In this document: positions 19,204-40,083 of the stretch, in pieces
How positions within the stretch are numbered: the first letter of the stretch is position 1
Layout of the letters: each line of letters starts with the position of its first letter
Assembly: GCA_946699065.1 (NCBI GenBank)
Contig: CAMPDV010000124.1
Location: 248,001-312,000, forward strand
DNA: 64,000 nt
Source: Loxodes magnus
Taxonomy: Eukaryota > Ciliophora > Karyorelictea > Loxodida > Loxodidae
Reading direction: 5' to 3'
Translations under genes and position numbers: made by a program
The notes under the pieces: generated by a model
Told to the model about the DNA's origin: nothing
The model's input: the letters and a program-made list of their open reading frames with translations, nothing else
Database searches by the model: none

Positions 19204-20147
19204 TCAACTTGCAATCCTCCATTTTCTCACAGTATGGTCATCAGATCCAGATACTAGACATTTATTGTCCTTACTCAATGCTATAGAATGTACTGGCTAA
19301 GTATGCCCTTAAAGAGTCTGGATACATTCACCTGTGTTAAAGTTCCATATTTTGATTGTGTTGTCAAAAGAACCGGAAAATATAACACTTGAATCAGTAC
19401 TAAGTTGAATACTACGTACAGCCTTTAAATGATCATTAAGAGTACGAATACATTATCCCGTTTCGAAGTCCCATACTTTAATTGTACTGTCATAAGAACC
19501 TGATATTAAATACTTATTATCCAAAGTAAAATTGACCGATAAAACTCAACCTGTATGCTCAGAAAGATTTCGAATAATCTGACCAGTCTGGAAATCTCAA
19601 ATCTTTATCGTTGTATCAGGAAATGATGAGCCAGATACTATTCATTTCTGGTCACTTGTTATTTTTACCGATAAAACTGAACTTGTATGCCCAGTCAAAG
19701 TTCTCGTAAGGGAAGCGTTCTGGAAATCCCAGATCTTTATTGTTGTATCTCCACTTCCCGATATAATTTATTTTTAGTCATTAGTTATTGCTACCGAATA
19801 AACTGAACCCGTGTGTCCAGTCAAAGTTCTTATACAACTTCCAGTCTGGAAATCCCAGATCTTGATCGTTTTATCGTCACTTCCCGATACAATTAATTTC
19901 TGATCACTTGTTATTGCTACCTAGTTAACATAATCCTTATGTCCAGTCAAAGTTTAATCTAAAATATTAAAGAATTACCTTTAGTTTAGTCGTAGCTAAT
20001 CTTATTTACAAGTTTCTAGAAGCATAGGTTTGTTAGTATTTCATATTTAAAAATAAGAATCGGTATTTTGCCAAGAGAATAATTTCTTAATTTTAAGAGT
20101 TTTCGTAAAAAAATGCATTTAGTAAATTGTATTTCTTTTATCTCCAT
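19204..20147 (-). CDS. WD40-repeat protein, WD40 gene 1
   Basis: ATG at 20147-20145, one 20-nt intron (19959-19978) and a terminal TGA at 19206-19204 give 308 codons including the stop, an exact multiple of three only if the intron is removed. Exon 1 is 169 nt and encodes a basic leader ([10 protein letters not shown]) shared by all four WD40 paralogues here. Six WD repeats follow, each with G-H-[ST], an S-G-S turn and I-K-[IV]-W-D. WD40 propellers are protein-interaction scaffolds; nothing shows a specific partner. Internal TGA reads as Trp (Q-K-W-I-V-S-G and H-T-G-W-V), whereas the TGA after K-W-R-I-A-S is in the position where all four paralogues end. Intact and probably expressed. Confidence 0.88.
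19959..19978 (-). other. 20-nt spliceosomal intron of WD40 gene 1
   Basis: Sequence GTAATTCTTTAATATTTTAG, with GT and AG ends. Removing it joins T-K and D-Q-T-L-T-G-H in frame. The identical 20-mer sits at the same place in WD40 gene 2, and a 21-nt variant is in gene 3. Confidence 0.85.
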
Positions 20148-22105
20148 TTTAGTTTATAACTTAATTAATTATTTTTTAAGTATTTTTAGTTATTTCTTTA
20201 TTAATATATTAATTTAAAAAAATTATATTTAAGCCTTAGATCTAGGCAGAAATAAAATTGATAATAAACAGTTCAGTAAAAAGAAGCTTTTGCAATTATA
20301 ATTATTCTATATCTTTTTACTTTTAAATAAAAGGATTTTTTTACTATATCACATGCTATATCCAGAACTTATATCCTTATTATACTAGCTTTGCCATGAA
20401 TTTATTAATTATAGCTTATTTTAGTTTTATATAAAAAGATTCTTAATAAAAGGCATTTATTTCTTTATTTACTCTTATAAATGATAAACAAAATAATAAG
20501 CTATTTTAATAAATAAAGAAGTGTTAGTTTCTTAGTAACTAGTTTATATAAAAATAATATATAAATAAGAAATCATTTAATTACTTAAAGCTAACTACTT
20601 AACTTTTACTTTATAAACTATAATCATTTATCTATTTCATTTCTTTATACTAATTCATTTAAATTTTATTTGAAAGACTTCCTCTTAAATTACTGGAGAA
20701 GTAATTTATTACTTATAACTAGTGTTTATTCTAAGTAAAATTTGGTTATATAAATTAATAAAAATTACAGAAAGTAAATATTTAAAAATATCTAGCAAGG
20801 AAAAGCTTATCAATCATATTAGTTTACAGTTTTATCTTATTTTTAAAATAAGCTTTACTATGTTTATTTATGTCTATTAAGCTACTTAAAATCACTTTTT
20901 ATAAGTTTATAGTCAAATTGTGAATTTTTACCTAAATGGAGAAGAAATAAAATATCTTGTACAATTATAAAAGAAAGTAAGCGAAAAATAGCTAAGTTAT
21001 ATTTGATAAATAATGCAGTAGGTTTTAGTAAAACTAAGAAACAAATTAACTTATCTCATTTCAACCTATTTTTAATCAATAGAAGCATTAACTTTTTCTT
21101 TAGGATTTTCTGACTTAAACTCATTAAGTAGTTACGTTTTAATTAAATTAGGGAGATTTCCTATAAAATCATAGAGATCCGCTTATTTCAAGCATTTATA
21201 AACCCATAAACCTTTTATAATAATGTTTCTAAAAGTTAAGTTAGATTATTAAACTTGGCAAGATTTTAAATCTAAAGCTCCATTAACTTAAATTTTAGAA
21301 TTTAATTGAATATGTTTAGCTAGAATTCTAATTATAGGACCCATAACACATCAAATAATGAATGAAAATGTTTACTTTCACATAATTATCATAGATCATT
21401 TTCAAAATTAGAGTAGAAAATTAAGTTCATATTTAGTTTCTTCCTGGGTAAAAGCTTCTCTTAAATCTAAGAAGATCTAATAATGTTTTAATTTTCAATA
21501 TTATTATGTTTAGAAAATCTGATAAGCATACAACTTAATTAAGAAGCTGCAGCAATTTAGATTATATATTGAACATAGCTTTAAGAATCCCATTTAGCAT
21601 ATACAGGAAGTAAATTGATTAGAAAACCCGCAAATTGCTTAATTTGCACTTAAATTGCTACATCAATACAGTTTTATTTATTTGCAATTGTAAATGCTCA
21701 TCATGATTCAAAATGATTATCTTTCGAAACTAAGAAAATAAGCATTTACTCTCTTTTTGAATCTTTTTCCCTCCCTTGCAACAATTCCGGGACCTTCAAA
21801 ACCGTTCATATTTGCCAGAGGTTTTTGAAGATAAGCTGTGCTGTAATTAACTTTCAAAAGCAGTAAACCAGATAGAATTTATAGTATCATAATATCTTAA
21901 ACTATAATTCTATTGACTAATGCATTGTAATTTAAGCATTGATTCAAATTAAATTTAACTATTTGATCCTTTTAAGTTTTATTAAGTTATTAATTTAAAT
22001 TTAATTTCCATACATTTCTAAATTATAAAGATATTAGATTAGTTACAATTAATAATTAATGCATCTTATTAGATCTCTTTCTCTTTTTTATAGCAAACTA
22101 ATATT
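20148..22105. repeat. Upstream flank duplicated with WD40 gene 2
   Basis: This noncoding flank aligns with 30811-34933 upstream of WD40 gene 2, for example 20361/31100, 20620/32205, 21365/34165 and 22090/34918. It lacks the two insertions present there, so it preserves the empty sites. Similarity stops after TAGCAAACTAAT at about 22102. No gene was recognised inside. Confidence 0.75.
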
Positions 22106-22113
22106 TATTATCA

Positions 22114-22600
22114 ATGGATTAAATAAATATTGTAAATAGACCTTTTGATCGGCAAACATACTAATTAATCCAGCAGACTAAATAAAAGTTACAAGAATAA
22201 ATTATGAAAAGAATCAGGAAATGCAAAAAGAGATAAGCTATGATCCTATAGATGCAGAGACAGAGAAAGAAAAAATAAATTAAGCGTTAGTTTATACATA
22301 AAGAAGATAGATAATAAGGTGCTGATATAGCAAGAAGAAGGTCACAAGGTAAGAAACTGTTGGAAATTAAAAAAAAGAACGAAAGAATGAAATAAAATAT
22401 TTAGAATAAACTGCACAAAAGAAGCAAAATTATATAGAAGAAAAGAAAAATAAATAATTCAAGCAATACCTCGAATACTAATAGAAGCAAGAGAATGGAA
22501 CAAAAGACAATTCAGATTTGACATAGGAAAGCTTATGAAGGTAAGTCTCAATTGATACGAGTCAAACTATAACAAATCTTAGAAAAAACATTATAGTTTA
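22114..22600 (+). pseudogene. ORF1-like zinc-knuckle gene of a retroelement, fragment
   Basis: A basic, Gln- and Lys-rich reading frame starts at ATG 22114. Near 22322-22360 a CCHC zinc knuckle is split by a frame change: the first half reads C-W-Y-S-K-K-K (Trp from TGA; the second Cys is replaced by Ser) and the second half reads G-H-K-V-R-N-C-W. The C-terminal part (F-R-I-N-C-T-K-E-A-K-L-Y-R-R-K) matches the element at 32957 (F-R-I-Y-C-A-Q-E-G-K-V-Y-R-K-K). Such proteins bind nucleic acid and are typical ORF1/Gag-like products of non-LTR elements. It begins where WD40 flank homology ends, consistent with an insertion or breakpoint. Confidence 0.65.
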
Positions 22601-22921
22601 TTAATTTAATTAAAAATCCTTTTAAATATTGTCCAAGAATATCAACCTTAAATTGCTTTTCTTTGCTCAATTTTTTTGTTTTAAGAAGAATAGGTTAGTT
22701 AAGACGTGGTAAGAGGACATGCTTCTGATTTTGTCTCCTGCTTTGAGTAGGCGATAAAAAAACCCTTAGTCAGTTTTTTGATATTTTTTAATAAAAATTT
22801 ATAAAAGTATAAAGTAAAAAATGCTAAATAGTTCTATTTCGAGTTAATTAAGGTTTAGTTACTTATTTAGAATAAATAGACTGAAATTCTATTTAATACA
22901 TACTTAAGAATAAGTTTATAA

Positions 22922-22994
22922 AGCCTTGTGGCGCAACGGTTAGCGTATCAGCCTTCTAAGCTGAGGGTTGTGGGTTCGAATCCCACCAAGGCTG
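22922..22994 (+). tRNA. tRNA-Arg (anticodon UCU)
   Basis: Complete cloverleaf of 73 nt without intron. Acceptor arm AGCCTTG pairs with CAAGGCT, the D arm is GCGC/GCGT, the anticodon stem TCAGC/GCTGA encloses loop CTTCTAA with TCT at positions 34-36, and the T arm GTGGG-TTCGAAT-CCCAC is perfect. The discriminator base is G and no CCA is encoded. A T5 run at 22995-22999 serves as Pol III terminator. It decodes AGA, the main Arg codon of this A+T-rich DNA. Confidence 0.96.
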
Positions 22995-22999
22995 TTTTT
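22995..22999 (+). terminator. Pol III terminator of tRNA-Arg
   Basis: Five T residues directly after the tRNA discriminator base. Confidence 0.8.
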
Positions 23000-23136
23000 A
23001 ATATATAAGATCTTTAGAAATATCTATTAGCAATACTATTAAATTTATTAAAGAAAAAGAAGCAATTAATATTCAATACACATTATTTAAATAAAAGATA
23101 GTATTATCTAAACAGATAAATAAATTTAAAAAAATT

Positions 23137-23541
23137 ATTATAGAGCGCGTAGCACCTCGATGGCGCGCAGCTCTTTCAATATTAATATTTAATATTTAAA
23201 ATGTTCTCATGATTCTTGTTAAATTCTAGAGGTCCGATGAGTCATGTCAGCTTCTCCAAATGGGGAATCTTCTTAATAAAAATTATTCTAAAATCTTGAG
23301 TCAAATGCTTCAGTCTTCTTGAATAAGGTCCAAAAAAGAGATAGTTAGTAAGTCGGTAATTAGAAGACTCATCAGTCGAAATTTCATACTGCTAGAAAGA
23401 ACCCTCGGGGTAAGTTAGGTACGTCTCAACGGAGCTTATCCACCCTTCCCCGTGGTGACATCTAGTGCGAGATTACTCCCAATGCAGTATACACTGCACC
23501 AGATTACCTACTAGTTTGACTGACGCGGTCGACATCCATTT
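23137..23541 (-). mobile_element. 405-bp SINE-like element, copy 1
   Basis: GC-richer than its surroundings and nearly identical in reverse orientation to 28681-29085 and 33684-34088. Read on the minus strand it starts at AATGGATGTC and ends in a strong hairpin (GAGCTGCGCGCC ... GCGCTC) followed by TATAA. It has no coding potential and contains long-range pairing: GATGAGTC in its middle can pair with GACTCATC nearer the 3' end. AT flanks TAAATAAAT on both sides may be a target duplication. Repeat number, size, 3' hairpin and AT tail suggest a SINE; a Pol III promoter was not convincingly seen. Confidence 0.7.
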
Positions 23542-23580
23542 TTATAATATATAATATAAATAAATAATAAACGGTTTTTT

Positions 23581-24412
23581 ATGTCAAAAATTGACTCAAA
23601 CAAATATAATCAAGAAAGACAAGTTAATCTAAACTTAAAATAATTAATAGGAAGCATCAACTAATACTATTATAACATAATAACTAATACTGCCAAGTTA
23701 AATTGCCAGATGAAGATTTTGTTTTACTATAGAATTGATATCACTAACTAAACTTAAAATTAATTTAAAGTATCCAAAATATGTAAACACTTGAGATTAA
23801 AATAGAAGAGTTTTAAAAACTTAATTAAGATTTAAAAAAAGATATATTTAATTATTCTACTAAAAGATGAAAAAAAGATAAATAAAACTAAACAGACTCG
23901 ATCAATGCTATTTATCAGAATTAAACCTTATCTTCCAATATTAATCTTAATATTCTTAAATGGAAACATGAAGTAGAAGATAAATTAATTCCACCAGCAA
24001 AACATATGAGTAAACATAATAATAAAAAAAGAGTGTGATTAAATAATATGTTACTTCAATCTAACTAGTCTATAACTTTAAAAATTTATTAAAATCAGAA
24101 ACTTGAAGACGTTCATAGCCTGAAATGTGCAATATATATGATAGATATGAAACAGTTATTTAAGATTTAGAATAAGGTACATATGATAGTGTGAAAAGTA
24201 AAATTTATATAGATAGAAAGCTACTTAAAAAATATACGACGTAAGTAATATATACTTCGATACAATATTTCCATTAACATCCTGAGTATGTAAAAAGATT
24301 ACCACATATTTAGATTAACCAATAAGGATAGAAAAGTATTTGCATTTATGAAAGTGGACTACCTGCAGGATCGGAAAAAATTAGAAAAGATTAATAAATT
24401 TAAAAAATAAAG
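23581..24412 (+). pseudogene. Probable 5' ORF of the LINE
   Basis: A plus-strand frame starts at ATG 23581 and continues, after a change to a neighbouring frame near 23820, with convincing protein (W-K-H-E-V-E-D-K-L-I-P-P-A-K-H-M near 23970, then N-K-K-R-V-W). It ends just before the ATG of the endonuclease ORF at 24413. Position and basic composition fit a LINE ORF1, but no zinc knuckle or RRM was recognised. Confidence 0.45.
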
Positions 24413-27400
24413 ATGGGACATATAAATATTAATGTAATAGCTAACAAGTTCTTGAATACTGAAGAATTTATCGAAGATAACAGTATTGATATTTTATCAA
24501 TAAATGAAACCTGATAAAAGATAACTTTCCTCCAATATTGATAAATGGATTTAAAACATATTTTAAAACTCAGGAAAAAGGAGGAGGCATATACCTAATT
24601 GTAGGAGAAGAATTTAATAGTACAGAAATACATACATAAGTTGAAAAAGAAATAAATCGATTCATAACAATTAAACTGGATAATATTTTAATCACGTCTT
24701 GTTACATGCCTGATAGTGGAAAAGTTAAGATGTTAAAGACTTAGCATATGAGCAACTAAATACATTGCTGAATTTATATAATGATAATCCACATATACTA
24801 ATGGGAGATTTCGATGCTCTTTCATAAGGTTTCGGTGATAATCCTGAAAATATTTATGATAATACCCTTAGGCTATTAGAATTTTATTATATATTATATT
24901 TTTAAAACCGCCAGGTTGTTCGAAGGTGAACAACAAGGTCGTCTTCATCAGAGGTTGGGGAAGTTAAGTACCCATAATTGACTTTATGTCTTCCTCTGCT
25001 TTGGTTTGGCCTCGAGACATAAGATTCCTAGACCTTCGGCACTGGCTTCGTTTATTTTTAATTCTGGAACTAAAAAGAAATTATTTTTGCGAGCTTCATC
25101 AGAGGTGGGGAATTTAAGTACCCATAATTGACACATGTCGTCCTCTGCTTTGGTGATGCAATGAGACACAATCCTGCCATGTCCTTGGACCTCCAGCAAG
25201 TATTAAAGATTACGAGTATTTTAAAATTATATCAGTATTGAACATTTTTATCAGTACTGAATAATTATACCAGTATTGAACAAGGTTTATCAGTATCTGA
25301 TAATTTTATCAGTAACAAACATTCTTGTCAGTATGAAACATTTTTTTTAAAGAGCTGCGCACCAACGAGAGTGCTACGCGCTCTATAATCAAATTTATTT
25401 ATTTATAAAACGATCTTGAGATAGTGAATGATAGCAAAATTAATACATGTATACACAAAGGAAAAGGAAAAACGTATTGTAATGATTATATCATTATAAA
25501 ATAACATTTGAACGTTAATTAGTTTGCAAATTTCACTGCTCATAATAATTTATTTTCTGATCATATTCCAATCACTGTCAACTTTATCAATAATTCTATA
25601 GTCTATTGGGAAAAGATAACTCAGAGAAAATATAAAATAAATAGGTTATAAGATGCAATAGATAGGCAGAAATATTAAGAATCTTTCCTACAAATTTATC
25701 TAGAATTCTTTTAAATAGATTAAGATAATCTTGAGTCTTAATATGAATGCATCAAAAGTAATATTTAAGATAATGCTGATTAAACATTAGGTTCGTTTAT
25801 TCCAGACTCAAATCATAACAAACTTCCTCGAGATCTCACAAAGAAATATATAGAGGCAAAAAGAGCTAACTCAGAATATAAGGACGCTCACATAAAATTT
25901 GGAATAATAAACTAGCAAGTAACTAATCTTCATGAGGCAGCAAAACGACTTTGGAAAGACTTCAAGTATAATCTATGAAAATTTAAAAAAATAAAGCAAA
26001 AAAGAAATTTCTACTTCTAAATGGAGATGCTAAGAAATATTCACATGCTAAGAAAATTCTAAATACTATGAAGAGAAATTAAATAAACTTGAATTAAGAA
26101 ATCAAAAATAAATTAATTGATTCATGGGAGAATTTTGTTTTTAACAAGCATTCTAATATAGCTCAATAATAGATAAATATTAGTAATTAAAAAATAGATA
26201 AAATATTCTATAGTATTAAAGAAATTAAAGATTATCCACTCTCATATTTATAAGGATTTTATCTTTTTACCATTCAAGAAATATAAGAAATTATAAAAGA
26301 AATTCCGAATGGAAAAGCAGCTGGTCCAAACGGAATAAAAAGTGAACTTCTAAAATATGGGGAATAATATTGTTAATAATTCTTCACTCTTTTCTGAATA
26401 ATATGTTAAGACTTGGAAGAATCCCTTAGAAATTAAATACATCGGTGATAATTCCGATATTTAAAAAAGGAATTAAAGATTATTGGAAAAACTGACGACT
26501 TATTCCTCTTATTAATACTATTCTAAAACTATATGATAAAGCTTTAACAACAAAACTATACAATATGATTTATTAGAGAAATTTGATTCATCCTTCATAA
26601 ATGGGATTTATGAAAAACAGATAAGCAACTTATAAATTTGAATAATATAACAAATAATTGATAACTATCGGAAACGTACTAAAGTTAAGACTAAATTAAT
26701 AGCAGTACTAATAGATGTTGAAGAAAATATTTGTCTCAATAGAAAGAAGACTTTTGCTTGATCGACTTAAGAGAGTTAAACTACCTCTTGAAATAATGCA
26801 AGCCTTAGAATCGTTTTACAAAAACCTAAATTCTTTAGTTATTATAGATGGAAAGAACGCATGAACATTATAATACAACAATGTAGTTATTAAGGAAGTT
26901 CACATGGACTAATTTTAGCATTGTTGTATTATGATATAGTAATTAGATATTTGGAAAGTAAAAATATCTCTTTGGAATTCAAATGTCAGGGTTCGAGAAT
27001 TATTTTCGCTTGTAGAGGATGTGCAGATAATCTGATTCTTCTTTCCAAATCCGCAAAGTAGATGTAGAATCTAATAAATGAAACAAGTAAGTTTTTTGCA
27101 TGAACACATTTAAAGATCAATGCTACTAAATTTGAATGCACCTGATTTCCAAAAAAGAATCAGAAATAATAAAACTTAATTTTATGATTAGGAAATTAAC
27201 CAATTGCTTAAAACGAACAAGTAACATATTTAGAAGTTATTCTACATCAGAAGAAGAATTTGAATCATCATTGCAGAGAAGCCCCGTTCAAGTATTTAGT
27301 TGCAATGAAAAATTGTCTTTTAAACTAATGAAATATAAGAATGCGACTCCTTGACATTTAAAAACTTTATGCAGATTTTTAAATTACCTAAAGCAGAATA

Positions 27401-27455
27401 TGGAGTAGACTTGGTACCATGAAGATTAAAAAATTACACAATTTTTAATTTTTTA
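24413..27455 (+). pseudogene. Non-LTR retrotransposon ORF2: AP endonuclease plus reverse transcriptase, interrupted
   Basis: The ORF starts at ATG 24413. The endonuclease part shows D-I-L-S-I-N-E-T-W (24477-24512, Trp=TGA) where LINE endonucleases have the catalytic Glu, then H-I-L-M-G-D-F-D-A near 24800 (GDFNA box). After a 484-bp insertion it resumes and shows F-S-D-H-I-P-I-T (near 25555, SDH box). The reverse transcriptase follows: G-K-A-A-G-P-N-G-I-K near 26310, K-N-W-R-L-I-P-L-I-N-T near 26495, and C-A-D-N-L-I-L-L near 27022 in place of the YADD catalytic box. At least three frame changes are needed. Loss of the second catalytic Asp (D to N), the frameshifts and the insertion make it inactive. 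The family copies RNA by target-primed reverse transcription. Confidence 0.85.
24907..25390 (+). mobile_element. SINE-like insertion inside the LINE endonuclease
   Basis: A GC-richer stretch breaks the endonuclease ORF. It holds a near-direct repeat (24945-25008 and 25088-25153, sharing AAGTACCCATAATTGAC and CCTCTGCTTTGG) and ends in the hairpin module AGAGCTGCGC ... ACGCGCTCTATAATC, the same 3' end as the 405-bp elements although the body differs. It is followed by ATTTATTTATTTATAAA. This is the pattern of SINE families with different heads sharing one 3' tail. Confidence 0.7.
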
Positions 27456-27828
27456 AATATTTTTTTCATTCTATATCTTCTTTCTTAAATTTTTCTTTTT
27501 ACTTTCTAAAATTTAAAACATTTTTCCTTGATAATAAATTTTTTCGCATTTCTTGAAATTTGTTTAAAAATTTTATAACTATGTTTTAAAAGAAATTTCT
27601 TAAAGCTTTTTGAAAACTTTTTTGAAAATTTTATTCCGATTAGAGATAAATAAGCTTGTCAATTTAAAATCTTAATCCGTCCCAAAATTGCCTTTTATGT
27701 TAATCTCTTAGCCAAATATTTTTAAAAAAAGTATAACCTCAATTCCTTTTTTATTTTAAAATATCTTCATTTTTTAAATTAAGAAATTTTAATTTTAATT
27801 TTTTAAATATAAAAATTAAGAAAAAAAA
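27456..27828. other. AT-rich spacer between LINE and ORF1-type gene
   Basis: Poly-T and poly-A rich, no domain seen. It may be the LINE 3' untranslated region. Confidence 0.4.
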
Positions 27829-28482
27829 ATGGAATAATAGGTCCGTCTTTCAAAAAACTAAATAAGGAAAGCAAGAAAGCAAGCGACGAAAGAGGAAATA
27901 AAAAAATAAAGAAAATAATAAGAATCTAGCTCTTCATCTAAAGGAAAAATAATGATAGGTCCAGCCGAGCCAGCTAATCCACAAATTTAGAGTAACGACT
28001 TTCTTCAAGAGTAAATTGAAAAAATGAAAGCAATGATCACTAAATAAGATGAAATGATATTCAATTACGGAGATCGAATTCGAGAACTTATGGATTGCTT
28101 CGAAGATTAAAAACAAAGAATTAAAAATATTGAGAAACTAGCTAATAAAAATAGTTTAGTTACAGAATAGTAATTATGAGAAATGTCATAATCAAATTTT
28201 AAATAATCTCAATGCATGATTATAGAAGAAACTCCAACCCAATTTTAGAATACAGAATAAAATAAACCTAGTTAAGAATAGGCAAGTACGGATTTAACTA
28301 AAAGAATTGAACAGCTGGAAAATAAAATATTTAAAAAGAAGAACACTTTAAAATAAATAAAAAATTGCTGATATTACTACTCACGGAATCACTTACTAAG
28401 ACACTGCAAAGAAAAAAAAAATTTACCAGATAAGAGAAGAGCTGAAAACATGAAGAACTTTAAATAAACTATGGATTACTGA
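27829..28482 (+). CDS. ORF1-type zinc-knuckle protein of a retroelement
   Basis: From ATG 27829 the frame stays protein-like for 218 codons to a TGA at 28480-28482, which could be stop or Trp. It starts with a basic, Lys/Gln-rich tail and an S-S-S-S-S linker. Two helical, coiled-coil-like stretches follow (Q-E-Q-I-E-K-M-K-A and L-T-K-R-I-E-Q-L-E-N-K). A CCHC-like knuckle near 28366-28407 reads C-W-Y-Y-Y-S-R-N-H-L-L-R-H-C with Trp from TGA; the second Cys is Tyr. A 3' hairpin (GTGGTAACCATCCAC near 28533) follows, as in related elements. It is probably the RNA-binding protein of a non-LTR element. No RT of its own is seen, although a broken LINE lies just upstream. Confidence 0.65.
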
Positions 28483-28680
28483 AAATTTAGTTTACAGAAA
28501 AAAACTTTTAATACGCAACAAAGAAAATTAAAAGTGGTAACCATCCACTTACAAAAAAGGTCGGGGAAGATTTACCACGTAAAAAAATTGGTCTGCAGGT
28601 ACCTGGTTGAAAGCCCAAGGGATAACAAACTTTTATTTAACACTAAGTTCATTTATTTATTAATATATTATATTATATAA

Positions 28681-29085
28681 AATGGATGTCGACCGCGTCA
28701 GTCAAACTAGTAGGTAATCTGGTGCAGTGTATACTGCATTGGGAGTAATCTCGCACTAGATGTCACCACGGGGAAGGGTGGATAAGCTCCGTTGAGACGT
28801 ACCTAACTTACCCCGAGGGTTCTCTCTAGCAGTATGAAATTTCGACTGATGGGTCTTCTAATTACTGACTTACTAACTATCTCTTTTTTGGACCTTATTC
28901 AAGAAGACTGAAGCATTTGACTCAAGATTTTAGAATAATTTTTAATAAGAAGATTCCCCATTTAGAGAAGTTGACATGACTCATCGGACCTCTAGAATTT
29001 AACAAGAAACATGAGAGCATTTTTTAATAGTAAATATTAATATTGAAAGAGCTGCGCGCCAATGAGGTGCTACGCGCTCTATATT
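28681..29085 (+). mobile_element. 405-bp SINE-like element, copy 2
   Basis: Reverse complement of 23137-23541 with only a few differences, and direct repeat of 33684-34088. It starts AATGGATGTCGACCGCG and ends GCTACGCGCTCTATA, followed by a (TTTA)n-like tail. Copies differ at the paired site: GATGGGTC here against GATGAGTC in copy 1, both able to pair with GACTCATC through G-U or A-U. Confidence 0.72.
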
Positions 29086-29873
29086 CATTTTTACTTATTT
29101 ATTTATTTTTTAAATATATTCCAAAACTTTTTTCTTTTATCTGCTTCTCTCACTTTTAAAATAAATTAAAAGCGTAACTTAATTAGAAAATAAATCTATA
29201 ATCTTTTAAAAAATTTAAAAAATGTAGGGTATATTAATATTTTTCAAATATACATTCAAAAAAAATTAGCAGTATAAAATTTAAAAAATAAACATCAAAC
29301 ATCAAACATAAAGGGATGGAATACAAAAATTAATTTTATGCTATAAAAATTTCTAAATTCTTTACGAAAAGATTTAGCTTAAAAACTATAATTCTAATCA
29401 GAAAATTGTCTCTTATTTCTCAAAATATCTTACATTGCAAAAAGCTGAAAATAAGACCTAGACATTTTTTTAAAATTTTTATATTATAAAAAATTATTTT
29501 TAACTTTAAAAATAATAAATTTTTAATTGCTTCTTTTAAAATAAATTAAACAATTCATATTTATATTAAAAAAAATTTAGAAATATATCATTATATAGAT
29601 AGTGCATTAAAATAATAATTGTCTCACCTTTCGAAATTTATCATATAGATACAAATGATATATTCTTAATCAATAAAATAAATACTTTGATAAACTTTAA
29701 ATTTTACTAAAAAATTAAAAAATGTTTATTATTAATAAGAAGCATAAGAAAAAATGAAATATGTATCTTTAAAATAACTAAAAATATTTTTGAAGCTATA
29801 AAATTAATTATATAAATGCATATATGAATTTAATTAATTTTAATTATAAATTCTTAAATGTTCTTGTCTCCTC
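29086..29873. other. AT-rich spacer downstream of WD40 gene 2
   Basis: No gene recognised. Part of it (29580-29720) resembles 36085-36230 downstream of WD40 gene 3, so the downstream flank duplicated with the gene. Confidence 0.5.
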
Positions 29874-30810
29874 TCAACTTGAGATTTTCCACTTTCTCAC
29901 AGTGCTGTCACCATTTCCGGATACTATCCATTTGTTGTCCTTAGTTAAAATTATGCTGTTTATTTCACCTGTATTACCTTGAAGAGTCTAAATACATTCT
30001 CCTGTTGAGAAGTTCCATGTTTTGATTGTTCCGTCCCATGAACCAGAAAAAATAACGCTTAAATCATTACTAAGTTGAATACTACGTACAATATCTTTAT
30101 GGCCAGTAAGTGTTTAAATGCAATATCCCATCTAAAAGTCTCATACTTTAATTGTGTGGTCAGCAGAACTTGATATTATATATTTATTATCTTGAGATAA
30201 GATTACCGATGCAATTCAATCGGAGTGCTCAGTAAGAGTTCGAATTAGCTTACCTGTCTAGAAATCCCAGATCTTTATTGTTGTATCTCGAGATGCTGAA
30301 ATAATTCATTTCTGGTCACTTGTTACTGCTATCGATAAAATTTCACTCGTATGTCCAGTCAAAGTTCTTGTACAAATTCCAGTTTGGAAATTCCAGATCT
30401 TTATCGTTGTATCTTAAGAACCTGAAATAACTCATTTCTGGTCACTTGTTGTTGCTACCGAGATAACTCAATCCGTATGTCCAGTCAAAGTTCTCGTACA
30501 GTTTCCAGTCTGGAAATCCCATATTTTTATCGTTGTATCTCAAGAACCTGAAACGATTCCTTTCTGGTCATTTGTTACTGCTACCGAGTTAATTTATTCC
30601 AAATATCCAGTTAAAATTTAATCTAAAATATTAAAGAATTACCTTCATTTTAGTCATATTTGATTTTGTTTGCAAGTTTTTAAAAGCACAAGTTTGGTAA
30701 GATTTCAAATTAAAAATAAGAAGAGATATTGCGCCTAGTGAATCGTTTCTTTGTCTTAAGATTTTTCGTAAATAAATACTTTTAATAAACTATGCTTCTT
30801 TATATTCCAT
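29874..30810 (-). pseudogene. WD40-repeat gene 2, frameshifted in exon 1
   Basis: Same architecture as the neighbouring WD40 genes: ATG at 30810-30808, a 20-nt intron at 30623-30642, six WD repeats, and TGA at 29876-29874 after K-W-K-I-S-S. Exon 1 is 168 nt instead of 169 nt in the other three, and spliced length is 917 nt. The missing base lies near 30700, where paralogues have TTTAAATATGAAATC and this copy has TTTAATTTGAAATC. The WD part is otherwise open and shows H-S-D-W-I and Q-K-W-[IV] with Trp as TGA. It is either a young pseudogene, an assembly error, or a gene starting at a later site. Confidence 0.8.
30623..30642 (-). other. 20-nt intron of WD40 gene 2
   Basis: Identical to the intron of WD40 gene 1 (GTAATTCTTTAATATTTTAG) at the homologous position. 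Confidence 0.8.
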
Positions 30811-30935
30811 TTTAATTTTATAACTTACTTTAATAATTATTAAATTAAAATAGCTCATCTTAAAAAATAATGTTTTGATTTAATTTAAATAGAATTTAAT
30901 ACTTAAATTATTTATTAATTAAGTATACTTATAAG

Positions 30936-30964
30936 TACTCTATTATCAATACATTTATTTTTAA
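30936..30964 (-). promoter_or_regulatory. Conserved upstream element of the WD40 genes
   Basis: About 130 bp upstream of the start codon, GAGTACTTATAAGTATACTT (minus strand) is shared with gene 3 near 37480-37503 and gene 4 near 40205-40222, together with TAAGATGAGTTA closer to the gene. The ACTTATAAGT core is palindromic and TATA-like. Function is inferred from conservation only. Confidence 0.4.
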
Positions 30965-31302
30965 TTCTATTTTTGCCTCAATTAAGGCCCTATAAATAGA
31001 TTTTAAATAGTCCAGTATAAATAAGCTTTTACAATTTTAATTATTTTATATATTTTACTTTTAATTAAAGGGATTTTTTTATTATATCACATGTTATATC
31101 AAAGAATTTATATCTTTATTATATTAGATTTGCTATGCATTTATTAGTTATCATTCGATTGAGATTTAAATCAAAAGATTCTTAATAAGTAAGATTTCAA
31201 TTCTTTATAAACCCTTTTAAATGATAAGCAAAATCTTATATTATTATTACTTTGAAAACTGCTGTTTTTAGTAATTATTTTTCACTTAATTTAATCAAAA
31301 AA

Positions 31303-32095
31303 ATGAGTTCTCTAGGATTTAATTTAAAAAAATTAAAAATGATACCTAAGAAATAACAGACTTCACCAACAATACCTAATAATACTTAGCAGGATTTAGC
31401 AATTATCTCAACCTTATTTAGATAGAGAATTAAGAATTAACAAAAGCTATTAAAGATCTTTATCAACTAACTAATTAATTATTAAACTCTATGGAAATTC
31501 TAGAATCGGAAAATTCAACATTACGATAGGAAATTAGCTCTAAACCCACATTTGTATCAAATTTAAGGTAGATTTTACAGACAGAACAAACATTAAAAGA
31601 AATTTAAAACTCGAAATTATGTAAATCAAACAATCCTAAATAAAAAATGGACCAATGGAAATAGAACGAAAATTTGTAATAAAATATATTCCCTATCAAA
31701 AAGTAATGATATGTTTATATTGCAAGAGTTCAGGACATAAAGTAAGAAACTGATAAAAACTCTAATAAAAATAAAAGAGATAAATATAAAATAAATAGTA
31801 GGATATAATTTAGAATATATTACACAAGTGAAGGTTTACTCTATCGGAAAAAATTACTCCGACTTAACAGAGGAGTTCCTTATATCTAAAAAGCAGTAAA
31901 TTATTTCAATAGAAAATAATTGGAATTCGACCTTTCGGAAAAAATAAAAGAAAATAATCAAGAAATAATCAAGAAATATAATAATTTAAGATCCATGCAA
32001 ATTTGAAGTGAGGATTTATTTTTAAGCAATAAACTAACAAACTAATATGTGGTAAACCTAATAAAGGTGACACCACTATAAAAAATTATTACTAT
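31303..32095 (+). mobile_element. ORF1-only retroelement, decayed, inserted in WD40 gene 2 flank
   Basis: Absent from the paralogous flank of WD40 gene 1 (site near 20530). It encodes, over several frames from ATG 31303, a helical region, the motif P-M-E-I-E-R, and a zinc knuckle C-L-Y-C-K-S-S-G-H-K-V-R-N near 31710-31755 whose last Cys codon is now TGA. At its 3' end is a hairpin (32049-32076, GTGGT ... ACCAC) followed by an ATT-rich tail. No RT is encoded, so mobilisation must have been in trans, as for HAL1-type half-LINEs. Confidence 0.68.
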
Positions 32096-32956
32096 TATAA
32101 TGATCAAGAAAAATAAAATTAATTCTTAGTAATTAGTTTAATAAAAAATATTTATAGAAAATTAAAAATTATATAAAGCAAAGTATTTAACTTTTTAATT
32201 TTTAAGTTATAATCATTTATCTATCTAATTTCTTAATACTATTTCAGTTAATTTTTTTATTTACCAAATTTTCTCTCTCAATGTTAACATAAGTCATTTA
32301 TTGCTTATAATTAATATTTTTCTAAGAAAAGTTGGTTATAGAAATTTAATAAATAAAATAAAATTGTAGAAAGAAAATAATTAAGAATGTCTAGACAGGA
32401 CATTATTACACTATCACTAATTAAATTTACGATTTTTAAACTGCAAACTTATATTTTATTTTCAAATAAAGCTTTACTATTTCTAATTATGTCTATTAAG
32501 GTACTTCAAATAAAAAATATTTTAAATTATAAATAAGTGAGATTTTTAACCTAAACTGAGATGAAATAAATATCTTGTATAATTAGTAAGCAAGCAAGCA
32601 AGATAAGTAATTAATTTATATTGGATAAGTAATATCAGAACTTAGCTTCTGATTGATTAATACAAAGAAAAAATTACCTGATCTCATTTCAGCCTATTTT
32701 TAATCAATAGAAGAATTATATTTTCTGGGAAATTTTTGATTTGAATTCGCTACGAAGTTACTTTTTAAGTAAAATAAGAATATTTCCTATAATTTATAGC
32801 GATCTACTTGCTTCAACTATTTATTTGCAAATAATCTTTTTATTACAATATTTCTAAAAGTTAAGTTGCCTACTATTTCGACAATATTTTATCTCTAAAA
32901 CTCCAAAAACTAAAATTTAAGAATTAAATTTAATAGTTATTAATATATTTTGAAAA

Positions 32957-33682
32957 ATGAAAAAGTTCTTGCAAAAAATCTCCTCTTAAAAGACTGCATC
33001 TCAATCAAGATATGATCAGTAAAAAATACTTTAAGAACTCCAAGTTATGTAATTAGAAAATTTTGGGCTCCTAAGAAAAATATAAGAACTCGAAAGGAAA
33101 TCAAATACCTGATGATTAAATAAAAATAACAAAAAAAATTGAAAATAAATAGTCAGGAAATATCAGAATAGAAGAACTAGAAACAAAATTCAACCAAATC
33201 GCAGAGTTAACTGAAAGAATATTCCTCTAAAAAAGATCGATGAATAATCCAATGGAAATCGAACAGCAAACTCTATCAAATTATATTCCCTATCGGAAAA
33301 TAATGGCAAGCTGATATTGCAAGAGGCCTGGATATAAAGTACGAAATTGTTTCCAATTTAGTCTTTAAGAAAAAACAATTATAGAAAAATAATGGGGAAA
33401 TATTTTTAGAATCTATTGTGCTCAAGAAGGAAAAGTTTACAGGAAAAAATATTTCAACGAAACAAAGAAGCTCCAAATATTTAGTGAGCAGTCAATTAGT
33501 TCAATAAGAAAGGAATGGGAATTGACTTATAGGAAACCATTAGTAAAAATAAATAAAAAGTCTTGAAGATTTATGATAGACATAACCCAGACAAATTTGA
33601 AGTTTCTATTACTTCACAATAAACTATTAATTCGTGGAAAACCAACTAAAGATGACTCCACGTTAACCAATTATTATTATAA
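32957..33682 (+). mobile_element. ORF1-only retroelement, second copy in WD40 gene 2 flank
   Basis: A nearly complete frame from ATG 32957, with one frame change near 33110, encodes a helical N-terminus, N-P-M-E-I-E-Q, and a knuckle S-W-Y-C-K-R-P-G-Y-K-V-R-N-C near 33306-33350 (first Cys replaced by Ser, Trp=TGA, His by Tyr). A conserved C-terminal block follows (W-G-N-I-F-R-I-Y-C). The 3' hairpin CGTGGA ... TCCACG (33633-33662) is followed by ATTATTATT. The paralogous flank of gene 1 lacks it (site near 21320-21345), and the missing segment spans both this element and the adjoining 405-bp element. Confidence 0.7.
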
Positions 33683-33683
33683 A

Positions 33684-34088
33684 AATGGATGTTGGCCGCG
33701 TCAGCTAAACTAGTAGGTAATCTGGTGCAGTGTATACTGCATTGGGAGTAATCTCGCACTAGATGTCACCACGGGGAAGGGTGGATAAGCTCTGTTGATA
33801 CGTACCTAACTTACCCCGTGGGTTCTCTCTAGCAGTATGAAATTTTGACTGATGGGTCTTCTAATTACTAACTTACTAACTATCTCTTTTTTGGACCTTA
33901 TTCAAGAAGACTGAAGCATTTGACTCAAGATTTTAGAATAATTTTTAATAAGAAGATTCCCCATTTAGAGAAGTTGACAGCACTCATCGGACCTCTAGAA
34001 TTTAACAAGAAACATGAGAACATTTTTAATATTAAATATTAATATTGAAAGAGCTGCGCGCCAATGAGGTGCTACGCGCTCTATAATC
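33684..34088 (+). mobile_element. 405-bp SINE-like element, copy 3
   Basis: Direct copy of 28681-29085, starting directly at the ATT tail of the preceding ORF1-only element and ending in the GCGCGCC ... GCGCTC hairpin plus TATAATC. It is followed by a T-rich tail and an 8-bp microsatellite. Either the SINE inserted in the ATT tail, or ORF1 element and structured region move as one unit. Confidence 0.72.
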
Positions 34089-34106
34089 ATTTTTACTTAT
34101 TTATTT

Positions 34107-34138
34107 AGAAATTTAGAAATTTAGAAATTTAGAAATTT
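34107..34138. repeat. AGAAATTT microsatellite (4 units)
   Basis: Four perfect 8-bp units directly after the 3' tail of the 405-bp element. Confidence 0.9.
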
Positions 34139-36310
34139 TAGTCATTTAACCTATAAATGGTTCAAAAAATTGATGAATATCCTTACTTTCACATAATTTT
34201 CGTATATTATTTTCGAAATCAGTATCAAAAGAATTAAACACATATTTAACTACTTTCTGAGTCGAAAGTTATTCCTCAATCTTAGAATATCTAGCAATAT
34301 TTATAGTTCCAATATTATATTGCTTTGTTAATCTGATATCTTATAATCTAAATAAGAAGCTGCAGCAGTTTTGAATATATATTGAAGTTTAGTTTAAGAA
34401 TCACATCAAGCATATAGAGCATGAAAAATTGAAAACAAAGTCCGCAAACTACTTAATCAAAATTTAAACCATTATAACTTTAAAGTTTTTTTCATTTGCA
34501 ACTATAAATTTTCACCATGATTATTAATAACTATCTTTCGAAGCAAAAAAACAAATATTTATCCTTTTTGGATATTTTCTTCACTTATAACAATTTAGGA
34601 ACCTTTCAAAACCAGTTTTTGCTAGTAGAAGTAAGTTTTTTAAGAAAAGCTGTTTTACAATAAATTTTCAAAAACAGTAAATCAGATGGATTTATAGGGG
34701 CATAATTCATTAAAACAACAATACTCTTGACTCAGATTTTAGAAATTAAATATCTTTTTTAATTATTTAGAGATAAATTTGTTGATATTTGATATTTAAA
34801 ATTTTTAGCTATTGAGTTATTTATTTAAATTTATTTTCTCTTTATTTCAAAATTATAAAGATATTAGATTATTTATAATTAATAATTAACATTTTTTTTA
34901 AAAACATTTTCTCTTTTTTATAGCAAACTAATTCTTTTTTTGGATAGGCTATAGATGCTATTTTTGTAAATTATCATTTAAAATTAATAATATATTTATG
35001 ATTTTGCTTAATGTATATTAATGTTGCTTCTTTTGCTATTAATTCAATACTTATTTTTAATAAATCTAGTTACTACTGTTAATACTCTTTTTTAAAATAA
35101 GTTGTTTGCTACTAAAAGAATTATAAATTTTAAGAAATAAACTATATTTTTAGCGCCTTCTAATACTATTTTCTGAATTAATAAAGGATTTATTTTAACA
35201 TATGATATATCTTTGTAATATGAGATAATATAAGTATCAGTTTAGTTTATATAGATTATTTAAAACTAATCTATAGATGTTATTTAATTTATCTTAATAA
35301 TTTTTATTTAATTAGGCTACTATTATTCTTATATCTTATTTTTCATATTAAGTATTTCTTCATATTTTATAGCAAATCAAAGTTATTAAATATTATACAT
35401 TTCACAAGATAAAAATATATAATCAATATATATATATAATTATAGAATTATTTAAAACCTAGAGCATTAAATGACTATAATTTTAGATTTTTTGCAATTT
35501 TCCTAACTTTAAATTATATTTATATTTATATATACCTTTTGAGAATTGTCTTTTTTAAGTATTCTTACTAGCTTTCTTATATAAAAATTGTAAAAAGGTT
35601 CATTTTATTTTATATACTTTTGATCTGGCAGCTATTTATCTTTTAAATATTCAAAGATCTTTCAAAGATGGAAAAGACTGGAAAATCTATATTAGAATTA
35701 ATCTACCTTTAGTACATCATAAGTTACTTCCAAACTTAATATTATTAAAATTTTATTTTTCCTTTATTCATCTCATATTGCTTAGATAGGTATATTTAAC
35801 TTTCTTCTAAGTACAATAACCCTTTTTAAAGGAACGCTTAGGAAGCTTCTTTTATTTAAAGCTAGGCTTCTTTTAGTGATTTTTTAATTTTAATTCTCAT
35901 TTAGTTGCTTTTTAAAAACTAGAAGAATTTTCCTTTAGCTATCTTTTACTAAATATCCTTAAAAAGGCTTTATGTAATTTTTAACTCTAGTCTTCTACTA
36001 GCATAATTCTACGTTTTGACTGTTTTAAAAAGAGAGTAGCTATAGTTATTCGTTACCTACTTCATTTCAAAAAATAAATGTAGAAATATATCTTTGATTA
36101 ATTAATGCATTACAATAACAATTAGACTCACTTTTTCTAATTTATCTTATAAATAAATGATATATTCTTAATGACTAAAACTAATATACTTTAATATATT
36201 TTTAATTACAACTAAAAAATAAAGAAACTTTAATAATTAATAAGAATTATAACTTAAAAGATAATTTACCATTAAATTAAACTTTCAATAGTCTTAAGTT
36301 ATTTGCATAT
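34139..36310. other. AT-rich region between WD40 genes 2 and 3
   Basis: Up to about 34933 this is the rest of the flank shared with WD40 gene 1. The remainder has no recognisable gene; the part near 36085-36230 resembles sequence downstream of WD40 gene 2. Confidence 0.45.
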
Positions 36311-37375
36311 TCAGTTAGCAATCTTCCACTTTCTCACCGTCGTGTCCCAACTTCCAGAGATTATCCATTTATTGTCCTTACTCAATGCTAAAGTTTAAAT
36401 TTCATATGTATGTCCTTGGAGAGTCTAAATACATTTACCCGTATTAAAGTTCCATATCTTGATTGACCTGTCATAAGAGACAGAAAATATAGCACTTGAA
36501 TCATTACTAATTTGAATACAACGCACAGTATTTGTGTGATCTTGGAGAGTTCGAATACATTATCCAGTAGAGAAATCCCATACTTTAATTGTATGATCAG
36601 CAGAACCTGATATTATATATTTATTATTTAGTGATAAGATTACCGATTCAATCCAGTTTGTGTGTCCAGTCAAAGTTTTCATACAGTTACCTGTCTGAAA
36701 ATCCCAGATCTTTATCGTTTTATCGTGAGATCCTGAAATGATTCATTTCTAGTCACTTGCTATTGCTACTGATCTAATCTAGTCCTTATGTCCAGTCAAA
36801 GTTTTCGTAAGGGTAAAAGTGTGAAAATTTCAGATCTTTATCGTATTATCTACACTTCCCGATACAATTCATTTCTGATCTTTTGTTATTGTTACCGAAT
36901 AAACAAAGTTCTTATGTCCAGTCAAAGTTCTACTACAGTTTCCAGTCTGGAAATCTCATATATTTATCGTTTTATCTACACTTCCTGATATGATTCAATT
37001 CTGGTCACTTGTTATTACTACGCAGTAAACTGAACTCGTATGTCCAGTTAAAGTTCTCGTGCAACTTCCAGTCTCGAAATTCCAGATTTTTATCGTTTTA
37101 TCGTGAGATGCTGAAACAATTCATTTCTAATCACTTGTTATTGCTACCGAGATAATTGAATCCATATGTCCAGTCAAGACTTAATCTAGAATAAATAAAG
37201 AATTACCTTAATTTTAGTAGTAGTTAATTTTATAAACAAATTTTTAGAAACATAAATTTGGTAAGATTTCATATTTAAAAAGTAGGATAGGTATTCTTCC
37301 AAGGGAATCATTTTTTGCTCTTAAGAGTTTTCGTAAAAGAATAGTTTTAATAAATTAAATTTCTTTATTTTCCAT
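36311..37375 (-). CDS. WD40-repeat protein, WD40 gene 3
   Basis: ATG 37375-37373, a 21-nt intron (37186-37206) and TGA at 36313-36311 give 348 codons including stop. The shared leader reads L-L-R-K-L-L-R-A-K-N. Seven WD repeats follow, enough for a full seven-bladed propeller. In four successive repeats the Trp of Q-[KN]-W-I is TGA, while in the last repeat all three Trp codons are TGG and the gene then ends at K-W-K-I-A-N-TGA. This is the cleanest single example in the window of UGA serving both meanings. Flanking sequence resembles that of genes 2 and 4, so the family spread by segmental duplication. Confidence 0.9.
37186..37206 (-). other. 21-nt intron of WD40 gene 3
   Basis: Begins GTAATTCTTTATTTA and ends TTCTAG, at the same phase and place as in genes 1 and 2. 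Removal restores D-Q-V-L-T-G-H in frame. Confidence 0.85.
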
Positions 37376-37479
37376 TTTTATTTTATAGCTTATTTTAATA
37401 ATTGCTAAACTAAAATAACTCATCTTAATAATATAATTTTAATAGCTTAACAATTTAATACTTTAACTATTTATTTATT

Positions 37480-37503
37480 AAGTATATTTATAAGTACTCT
37501 ATT
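37480..37503 (-). promoter_or_regulatory. Conserved upstream element of WD40 gene 3
   Basis: ACTTATAA-containing element (GAGTACTTATAAATATACTT on the minus strand) like those upstream of genes 2 and 4, a little over 100 bp from the start codon. Confidence 0.35.
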
Positions 37504-37559
37504 ATTAATACTTTTTTAAAAAGACATATTTTTGTTTTAAATTTAGACAACTACAAAAC

Positions 37560-37658
37560 TGATTATAAATGGGATTAAATCTAACAATATTAACATCATT
37601 ATTTGTGGTGAACCTTATAAAGGTGGTATCACATTAATCTATTATTATTATTATTTTA
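37560..37658 (+). mobile_element. 3' end fragment of an ORF1-only element
   Basis: Hairpin at 37605-37632 (GTGGTGAACC ... GGTGGTATCAC) followed by an ATT array, as at 32049-32095 and 33633-33682. No coding part remains. The segment is not shared with the flanks of the other WD40 genes. Confidence 0.6.
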
Positions 37659-39003
37659 CCTTTTTTTACTTAATTAAATAAGATTGCTACATAATTTGTG
37701 AATAAAATCATAATGATTTTTGTGATTTTCTTTAAATCAATAATTTAATTAGTAAATATTTGAAAAATGAGAATTGGAAAAAATGTATAAAAAATACATT
37801 TTCTTCGTTTTCTTAAGTATTAAAAAATTTAACTTTTTTAAGATTATATATAAGATAATTTTTTTTCTTCGGTTTTTCGAAAAATCTTCGTAGTATAAAC
37901 GCAGAGTCTAAAAGAAATATTTATTATTCATTTCTTTATGCATTGGTTTTTCAAGCTTGTAAAAAAATTTAAATATGAAGCATCTAATATAATAAAGGCA
38001 TATTATTCTATCCTTGTTTTTAATCTAAAAATAATAAATATATAAAATTTTATATTCAATGCATTTTATATTTTAAATTACGATATTTCCCTAAAATTAA
38101 AATTTTTTTAATTATAATTTTAAAACTAAATGTTTTTTTAAAATAAATACCAGCTAAAACATATTTATTTTCTACATAGAATTTATTTCCAACTTTCATT
38201 TATTTTCCAGAAATAAAAAATCATAATCAGTCCTTAAAATGTCTTCTACTTCTAATCACTGAGCAGAGAAATTTATAATGAAAAGCAGTTAAATATTTGT
38301 AACTTTTTCTCTTATCTTTAAATTTTTAAATTTTTTACTTCTAATATTTTAACTTTTATTTTTAATGATTTTAAATCTATTAATTTATAAATAGATAAAG
38401 TTATTTGAATAATGAGTTTTAAAATTTGCTTGATAAAATTAAAGAATTAAATTAATCTTTACAGTTTTAAAATAATTGCAATATAAATATATAATAATCA
38501 ATTATTTATTTACTTTTAAAAAGTTAAAAAATATATTTTTTAATTTATTCATCAAAATGTTTTATATCGTAAAGCACTGAGCCAAACTACGCTAAAAAAG
38601 ATTTACAAAATTTAAATATTTTAGAAAAAATATTTTAAATAAGCAAATATTTTATTCTTTCTTATGTTTACTAAAATATAATAATCAATTCATTTTTTAA
38701 ATAAACACTTAAAGTATTTAAATTAAGCAGTTTTTCTATAAGCATTAATTACTTAAGATAAAAGTTTTAAATGTAAAATTATTTTCTTATATTTTAAAAC
38801 TCCTCAATATTAAGCTACTCAAGGTTAAATGACCTTTATACTTATCTATAATAATATAACTTATGTAATGTTTTTAACTTTTAATTATTTAATATCCCCT
38901 GAAACTTATATAGATAAGTTAATTAAATGGTGGAACTTTAGCTAATTTTAATAATTAGCTTCTTAAATTGTAAAATTAAAATTTTTAATTCTTTTGTATT
39001 TTC
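37659..39003. other. AT-rich spacer
   Basis: No gene, RNA or repeat recognised. Confidence 0.4.
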
Positions 39004-40083
39004 TCACTTTGCTATCTTCCATTTTCTCACAGTGTTGTCCTCAGCGCCTGATACTATCCATTTGTTGTCCTTACTCAAGGCTGTTGAATTTATTGCTTAT
39101 GAATGGCCTTAAAGAGTCTATAAACATTCGCCTGTCTTAAAGTTCCATATCTTGATTGTTCTGTCATAAGAACCAGAAACTATTACACTTGAATCATAAC
39201 TAAGTTGAATGCTTGATACTGTTTCTGAATGACCAGTGAGAGTTCGAATACATTATCCAGTTGTAAAATCCCATATTTTTATCATATTATCAAAACCTAA
39301 TCCACTACTTCCCGATACAATTCAGTTCTGGTCACTTGTTATCGCTACAGATCTTAAAAAATTTTTATGTTCCTACAAAGTATTCTTTAACTAACCAGTT
39401 GTAAAGTCACATATCTATATAATCTTATCTCCAATTAACGATACAATTCATTTCTGATCATTTGAAATTATTACAGATCATATAGAATTCTTATATCCCT
39501 TAAAAGTATTCTTACATTAACCAGTTGTAAAGTCCCATATCTTTATAGTCTTATCATTACTTCCTGATACGATTCAATTCTGATCACTTGATATTGCTAT
39601 AGAGTTTACAAAACTCGTGTGTCCTTACAAAGTACTCTTTAACTAACCAGTTGTCAAATCCCAAATATTGATCATTTTATCATTACTTCCAGATACGATT
39701 CAGTTCTGGTCACTTGATATCGCCACAGAGTATATATAACTCGTATGTCCATATAAAGTTATCTTATACTAACAAGTCATAAAGTCCCAAATCCTTATCT
39801 AATTATCAGGATGAGATGAACATGAAACGAATCATTTCGAGTCACTTGATATTACTACAGATAATACAGAATTAAAATGTGCCTAAAAAGTAAAGTCTAA
39901 ATATTAAAAATTTCCTTAAGTTTAGTCGTATTTTATTTTTTTAACAAGCTTTAAAAAACACAAATTGGGTAGGATTTCATATTTAAAAAGAAGAAGCGGA
40001 ATTCTTCCTAGAGATTCAAGTCTTAATCTTAAAAGTTTTCGTAAAAAAATACACTTAATAAATTATATTTGTTTATTTTCCAT
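39004..40083 (-). CDS. WD40-repeat protein, WD40 gene 4
   Basis: ATG 40083-40081 and TGA 39006-39004 after K-W-K-I-A-K. Exon-1-equivalent sequence is 169 nt as in genes 1 and 3, but the intron site carries an 18-nt sequence starting GA instead of GT. It is in frame and open if retained (360 codons including stop), and the gene is also in frame if it is removed (354). Seven WD repeats follow. Five of them have TGA for the Trp of the [KN]-W-[IF]-V-S motif; the last repeat uses TGG. Repeats near 39300 contain a short insertion (S-G-L-G-F-D). Protein-interaction scaffold by family; no specific role can be inferred. Confidence 0.88.
39897..39914 (-). other. 18-nt intron relic, probably retained as coding sequence
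   Basis: GAAATTTTTAATATTTAG on the minus strand lies exactly where genes 1-3 have GT...AG introns. The donor is GA, and the length is a multiple of three. Under the local code the sequence has no terminator, so non-splicing would add six residues. Confidence 0.6.

Follow-up and report, generated by a model that had tools for sequence, protein, structure and literature searches.

The genetic code listed as NCBI table 27 was reportedly extended to the karyorelict ciliates by Seah et al. in 2022. Passages of Swart et al. (2016; PMC4967479) describe it for Parduczia. For Loxodes magnus, passages of the account published in PNAS in 2024 (PMC11441545) assign the species to table 27, describe a depletion of UGA and UAA, but not of UAG, over the roughly 20 codons before the stop, and give introns of 19.3 nt on average (mode 17, mostly 16-25 nt; 15-16 nt in heterotrichs), a G+C content of 33.5% in coding sequence and 18.6% in the 3' untranslated region (UTR), and a macronuclear (MAC) assembly of 706 Mbp. 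Here we analyze a stretch of 64,000 nt (contig CAMPDV010000124.1, positions 248,001 to 312,000), referred to as the window and numbered from its first nucleotide, with regard to four WD40 repeat genes, A to D, that lie on its minus strand. The source assembly comprises 705,730,643 bases in 7,843 contigs. With a probability of about 0.95, the DNA of the window derives from the macronucleus of the karyorelict Loxodes magnus, or of a very close relative, and is read with table 27, in which UAA and UAG encode Gln while UGA encodes Trp inside genes and stop at their end.

Evidence for TGA as a tryptophan codon

Under the standard code, no open reading frame of at least 150 amino acids was found in the 64-kb window, and table 6 yielded an uninformative 160 frames. 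When TAA, TAG and TGA were all treated as sense codons, WD40 repeat arrays appeared on the minus strand in four genes, A (20147-19204), B (30810-29874), C (37375-36311) and D (40083-39004); coding scans of the window returned these genes and a few short segments. Repeats were scored with a purpose-built profile (A 6, B 6, C 7, D 7), by which A and D were assigned as WD40 proteins; for B and C, Pfam PF00400 (WD40) gave 198.3 and 258.8 bits at a curated cut-off of 27.

The four genes contain 21 internal in-frame TGA codons (A 3, B 6, C 6, D 6) and 27 TGG codons. For residue assignment, the 26 repeats of the window were aligned, with X at TAA, TAG and TGA, to an outside WD40 profile of 42 columns, derived from 668 repeats of 72 loci from Bacteria and Archaea. 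TGA occurs in columns 17 (12 codons), 30 (4), 5 (3), 7 (1) and 23 (1), and TGG in columns 30 (21), 17 (3), 23 (2) and 5 (1). As the 21 TGA are confined to 5 of 42 columns, and 20 of them to the four in which TGG also occurs, their placement goes beyond chance. Column 30 is the nearly invariant Trp of the WD motif, with an emission of 0.80; column 17 is variable in the outside profile. Summed over all 21 codons, the profile votes for Trp with 58.4 log2 odds, followed by Tyr with 17.1, in line with an earlier note on this DNA, which had claimed four WD40 paralogs with internal TGA at Trp positions. Of 56 comparisons between paralogs that were listed for TGA, 37 pair it with TGG or with another TGA.

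Ten residues were tried at the TGA codons of gene C, and the PF00400 score was highest with Trp (259.0), ahead of Tyr (255.5), Phe (252.3) and Cys (234.1). PF25172 does not favor Trp (Tyr 288.3, Phe 289.2, Gly 288.8; Trp not listed at threshold); PF00400 was preferred as the model of the repeat itself. The example of a conserved Trp given before, Q-K-W-I-V-S-G-S, does have a TGA at this place, in a column that is variable and not conserved (T, R, L and I are commonest outside); stronger cases are the four TGA at the WD Trp of column 30. Judged by these alignments, internal TGA acts in conserved columns like a codon for Trp.

Evidence for TAA and TAG as glutamine codons

The outside WD40 profile lends weak support to Gln at TAA (8.0 log2 odds; Arg 6.9). 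In comparisons between paralogs, Gln is the top residue for both codons, a Gln codon standing opposite TAA in 31 of 59 and opposite TAG in 17 of 44 of those listed. A protein kinase domain (Pfam Pkinase; 55747..56412, plus strand), whose gene is unrelated to the WD40 family, is readable with the same code, with numerous TAA, TAG twice and TGA once in frame; among ten residues tried at its TAA and TAG codons (TAR), Gln scored best (99.6), with a margin of 0.8 bits over Ser (98.8), and Glu reached 96.4.

The best case for Gln is the eRF1 gene of the same assembly (L097), whose reading frame runs through 436 codons, including 13 TAA and 7 TAG. Nine of the 19 TAR codons that could be aligned to the solved eRF1 4d5n_A stand opposite Gln, compared with two of eight ordinary CAA/CAG codons. 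The glutamine of the GGQ motif is encoded by TAA, and those of SQEGSQF by TAA and TAG. The earlier assignment of TAA and TAG to Gln positions, drawn from the WD40 genes, is weakly backed by the WD40 profile itself, and the alignment of eRF1 supports it better. A reading of UAR as Glu, as in Blastocrithidia, was tried and rejected, given the TAA of GGQ, the kinase scores of Glu and Gln and the small number of aligned eRF1 TAR codons opposite Glu (2 of 19).

The eRF1 gene (1456-2766 of G000:C196) has RAQNIKS at the place of TASNIKS and FLCENTF at the place of YxCxxxF; both of these stop-recognition motifs are changed. Another eRF1-like match (L098) lies 35 kb from it, and one match (L096) is Pelota-like by eye.

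Gene structure and the WD40 family

Gene A starts with ATG at 20147 and consists of exon 1 (19979..20147), an inferred intron of 20 nt (GTAATTCTTTAATATTTTAG; 19959..19978), whose excision brings the WD40 part into frame with exon 1, and exon 2 (19207..19958) with six scored repeats and three in-frame TGA. In gene B, exon 1 (30643..30810, ATG start 30810) has a 1-nt deletion relative to A, C and D, owing to which excision of the intron fails to yield a single frame; the 20-nt intron (30623..30642), placed by alignment, is identical in sequence to that of gene A, and the WD40 part (29877..30622) has six scored repeats and six in-frame TGA. Gene C comprises exon 1 (37207..37375, ATG start 37375), a probable 21-nt intron (37186..37206), which was placed by alignment as its length is a multiple of three and the frame alone is uninformative, and exon 2 (36314..37185) with seven repeats and six in-frame TGA. 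Gene D has exon 1 (39915..40083, ATG start at 40083), an 18-nt block aligned at the intron site (39897..39914), in which GA replaces GT, and a WD40 part (39007..39896) with seven repeats and six in-frame TGA. The GT...TAG intron ends are aligned in A, B and C. The block in gene D, a multiple of three in length and free of in-frame TGA, is possibly retained in the mRNA, as an intron turned exon. The defects in B (deletion) and D (splice site) may reflect decay or assembly errors. Frame lengths had been said to fit exactly with a stop at TGA; that reading had overlooked the introns of A, B and C (20, 20 and 21 nt), the 1-nt deletion in B and the splice-site change in D.

A search with exon 1 of gene C (56 residues, 37208-37375) yielded 150 scored matches from 2,822 first-look candidates, the weakest with an E-value of 7.4e-15. 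Among the best 30 of these, all have WD40 repeats behind the first exon, and 29 have all six or seven repeats in a single frame. In this Trp-rich family, a first exon of some 56 codons is followed by a very short intron and seven WD40 repeats. Introns, located in this one family via GT...AG and frame, measure 18-23 nt in 26 of the 30 loci and in 28 of 33 copies with A and B added, which fits a karyorelict origin. The exceptions are L110, L125 and L127, which hold an 18-nt candidate within the longer one chosen, L100, which is broken, and gene D, which is without GT. A fifth copy on the same contig, gene E, has a like ending, with its terminal TGA at C124:334544. A search of one library of papers for Loxodes together with WD40 found no report, and peptide patterns gave no match in viral contigs.

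Elsewhere in the assembly, WD40-coding tandem arrays of a 126-bp unit extend over tens of kb (G000:C1503, ~12600-101600, with matches on C119, C9, C272, C620 and C1832; L073-L080). In L073 the frame slips within the array, which is therefore not one unbroken frame there.

The TGA at the gene ends

As claimed before, genes A to D all stop at a TGA two codons past K-W-[KR]-I. This TGA (19204..19206 in A, 29874..29876 in B, 36311..36313 in C and 39004..39006 in D) forms an invariant column of the alignment, and in gene A gaps occur only on its 3' side. The family survey comprised 34 copies, namely the 30 loci (of which L099 is gene C) and A, B, D and E; in a scan targeted at TGA, 33 of them had TGA at the aligned end, the exception being L100, with its repeats in three frames. 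In eRF1, the first in-frame TGA is codon 437, and the chain of 4d5n_A, aligned to residue 431, has 436 residues. Of the earlier statement on codon meaning, the sense role of all three stop codons is borne out, and a dual role is observed for TGA only.

We consider it very improbable that the window is read with the Condylostoma-type code (table 28), in which each of the three codons has a sense and a stop meaning. TAA, TAG and TGA do all serve as sense, and the survey consists of one family and eRF1, all TGA-ended, such that other genes could stop at TAA or TAG. Against table 28 stand the TGA at 33 of 34 aligned ends and after codon 436 of eRF1, as well as the introns of 18-23 nt, as opposed to 15-16 nt in heterotrichs, and an assembly size equal to that of L. 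magnus; in karyorelicts, too, UAA may terminate a small fraction of transcripts.

Still less credible is the explanation that A to D are decaying pseudogenes, with the internal TGA as nonsense mutations of TGG and the last TGA as the sole former stop. The 1-nt deletion in exon 1 of B, a frameshift in E and the broken frames of L100 would agree with it, but dN/dS is 0.29-0.40 in all six pairs of A to D, at dS values of 0.61-0.96, by which these genes look to be under purifying selection. Furthermore, the 21 TGA occupy only five columns, the repeats stand in one frame in 29 of 30 family loci, and none of the ten pairs of A to E has a gap in the 120 nt upstream of the terminal TGA, where identity is 0.69-0.78. 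Just as implausible is that TGA always encodes Trp and translation continues beyond the 'terminal' TGA to a later stop: no further in-frame TGA lies nearby (the distance is 53 codons in A, 68 in B and 61 in C, and gene D has none within 200 codons), and a few codons past the TGA are similar in A, B, D and E, but the 120 nt downstream contain gaps in all ten pairs (not a multiple of three in nine; identity 0.51-0.70), mean G+C drops from 0.337 in the last 300 nt to 0.175 in the next 100 nt, in 19 of the 19 genes used for the position statistics below, and eRF1 meets its first TGA directly after the 436 codons that match the length of the solved chain.

In the alignments, frame conservation and coding composition cease at one conserved TGA. 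The reading best supported by the sequence, from which both meanings were deduced, is that the same genes use UGA for Trp internally and for termination at their end.

Position of sense TGA within the genes

Position statistics were obtained for 19 non-redundant genes, after dropping L100 and copies at least 95% identical; they contain 123 TGA and 122 TGG among 5,230 codons. The TGA share decreases with proximity to the stop, from 0.71 at a distance of at least 181 codons via 0.52, 0.46 and 0.35 to 0.14 in the last 20 codons. Because repeat columns differ, equal columns were compared. For column 17, which in the last repeat lies 18 codons before the stop, the ratio of TGA to TGG is 49:1 in the repeats further upstream but 5:12 in that last one (Fisher 1.2e-8). 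For column 30, the corresponding ratios are 28:70 and, at a distance of 5 codons from the stop, 0:19 (p 0.006). Genes A to D alone have 0 TGA and 13 TGG in their last 88 codons, versus 21 TGA and 14 TGG upstream (p 1.5e-4). This TGA-free end of 88 codons was dismissed as an accident of these genes; further copies carry TGA there, and in the wider set sense TGA is found at 18, 30, 40, 47 and 54 codons before the stop. Near the end, sense TGA is depleted, not absent. The last 20 codons of the 19 genes include 0 TAA, 3 TAG and no CAA or CAG, which are very few codons.

We lean slightly towards the view that the family constitutes a natural experiment on distance, in which sense UGA is removed by selection at distances of 18 and 5 codons from the stop, with hardly any effect from 60 codons upward. 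If distance to the transcript end sets the rule, one and the same repeat position should be coded by TGA at remote sites and mostly by TGG near the end, as is the case in this family. Local context may also have a role in telling the two kinds of UGA apart: the preceding base is T at 15 of 19 terminal TGA and A at 67 of 123 sense TGA; both kinds of codon are tied to the residues next to them.

A number of observations count against the dual reading of UGA, or against the Gln and Trp assignments and the distance effect on which it draws. The profile method is a fair but imperfect judge, because it named only 31 of 43 sense codons correctly (those seen at least four times), and at TAG it prefers Lys (7.8) over Gln (6.6). 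The loci had been fetched with six peptides, one of which contained a TGA-coded Trp, entailing a slight circularity. Ends were defined as the first TGA in frame at or beyond codon 23 of the last repeat, which makes TAA or TAG ends undetectable, and genes B and E have frameshifts. Sense TGA is missing from eRF1 (0 of 4 Trp codons). As to distance, the TGA share falls unevenly, with two of three Trp codons being TGA at 21-40 codons and none of one at 61-88, and sense TGA persists near the end, in 5 of 17 copies at 18 codons before the stop. In 2,000 within-column permutations, p was 0.0005, the smallest attainable value, but paralogs and repeats share descent, and the p-values are too small. Finally, the base after TGA differs, being G at 17 of 19 terminal TGA and A, G and T at 78, 35 and 10 of the 123 sense TGA.

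Proposed mechanism and significance

Following published models, UGA far from the poly(A) tail would be decoded by tRNA-Trp, and UGA near the tail would be recognized by eRF1, where the tail and the tail-binding protein would favor termination. With a short 3' UTR, the last UGA would then become the stop. The WD40 family illustrates this rule well because it is Trp-rich. The code is already in print for this species; the finding is correct, the proposed mechanism is the accepted one, and no discovery of a code is involved. What the analysis adds is a comparison of matched columns across a large repeat family, which makes a compact case and may be of use as a test bed. If the distance effect is true, the family and the WD40 arrays of tens of kb could serve to determine, at the resolution of single codons, how close to the end UGA has to lie to act as a stop.

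Other features of the window

A tRNA-Arg (anticodon TCT; 22922-22994, plus strand) was the sole RNA gene detected in the window. An element of ~440 nt is present in three copies that are 94-96% alike, one of them inverted (23107-23549, 28660-29105 and 33663-34117); its G+C-rich, hairpin-like core recurs near 25325, 45572 and 48155. It is possible that this is a mobile element or a small RNA gene. At 24915-25344, 38-39-nt tandem repeats were observed, the minus-strand translation of which is also found beside eRF1 in L097; because of this recurrence, we regard them as an interspersed repeat of the genome. TPR repeats run off the left edge of the window (9-248, minus strand), with a 102-nt unit in 1.8 copies at 96% matches. 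Pieces of a segmental duplication (5557-12969 and 57535-64000) are 76-85% identical and lie 51-52 kb apart; scans in and around it, with three frames tried per stretch, found no Pfam family in 9001-12602 or 58001-60402 on the plus strand or in 56001-58402 on the minus strand. Pfam scans covered stated stretches of the window; the others, likewise without a Pfam family, were 12001-15002 (six frames), 24001-28502 (three plus frames), 40323-43000 (one plus frame) and 14900-16200 (one minus frame).

Comparison with known codes and systems

The window resembles table 27 and Loxodes magnus in having TAA and TAG as Gln, TGA as Trp or stop, and fewer sense UGA before the stop. Introns are near 19 nt in L. 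magnus and 18-23 nt in 28 of 33 copies here, and G+C contents of 33.7% (last 300 nt) and 17.5% (100 nt past the TGA) compare with 33.5% and 18.6% in print. In Parduczia, UGA makes up 0.120% of codons according to part of PMC4967479, versus 123 TGA in 5,230 codons here, where TGA is as frequent as TGG; the former figure is from a transcriptome and the latter from one Trp-rich family, and the samples are unlike. In Condylostoma magnum (table 28), as far as the same portion of PMC4967479 describes it, UAA and UAG likewise encode Gln and UGA encodes Trp, with termination near transcript ends; there, however, all three codons also act as stops, whereas TGA alone was found at the ends examined here. 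The nonstop code of Blastocrithidia, as given in part of PMC12153298, also has a sense meaning for all three stop codons, with UGA as Trp, but its UAR encodes Glu and its UAA also stops, in contrast to TAR as Gln and TGA as stop here. At the protein level, the 42-residue repeats with their WD Trp, seven of them in genes C and D, are shared with WDR5, F-box/WD 1A and prokaryotic WD40 proteins, from which the genes described here differ by a first exon of ~56 codons, a tiny intron, their membership in a large family within one genome, and their in-frame stop codons.

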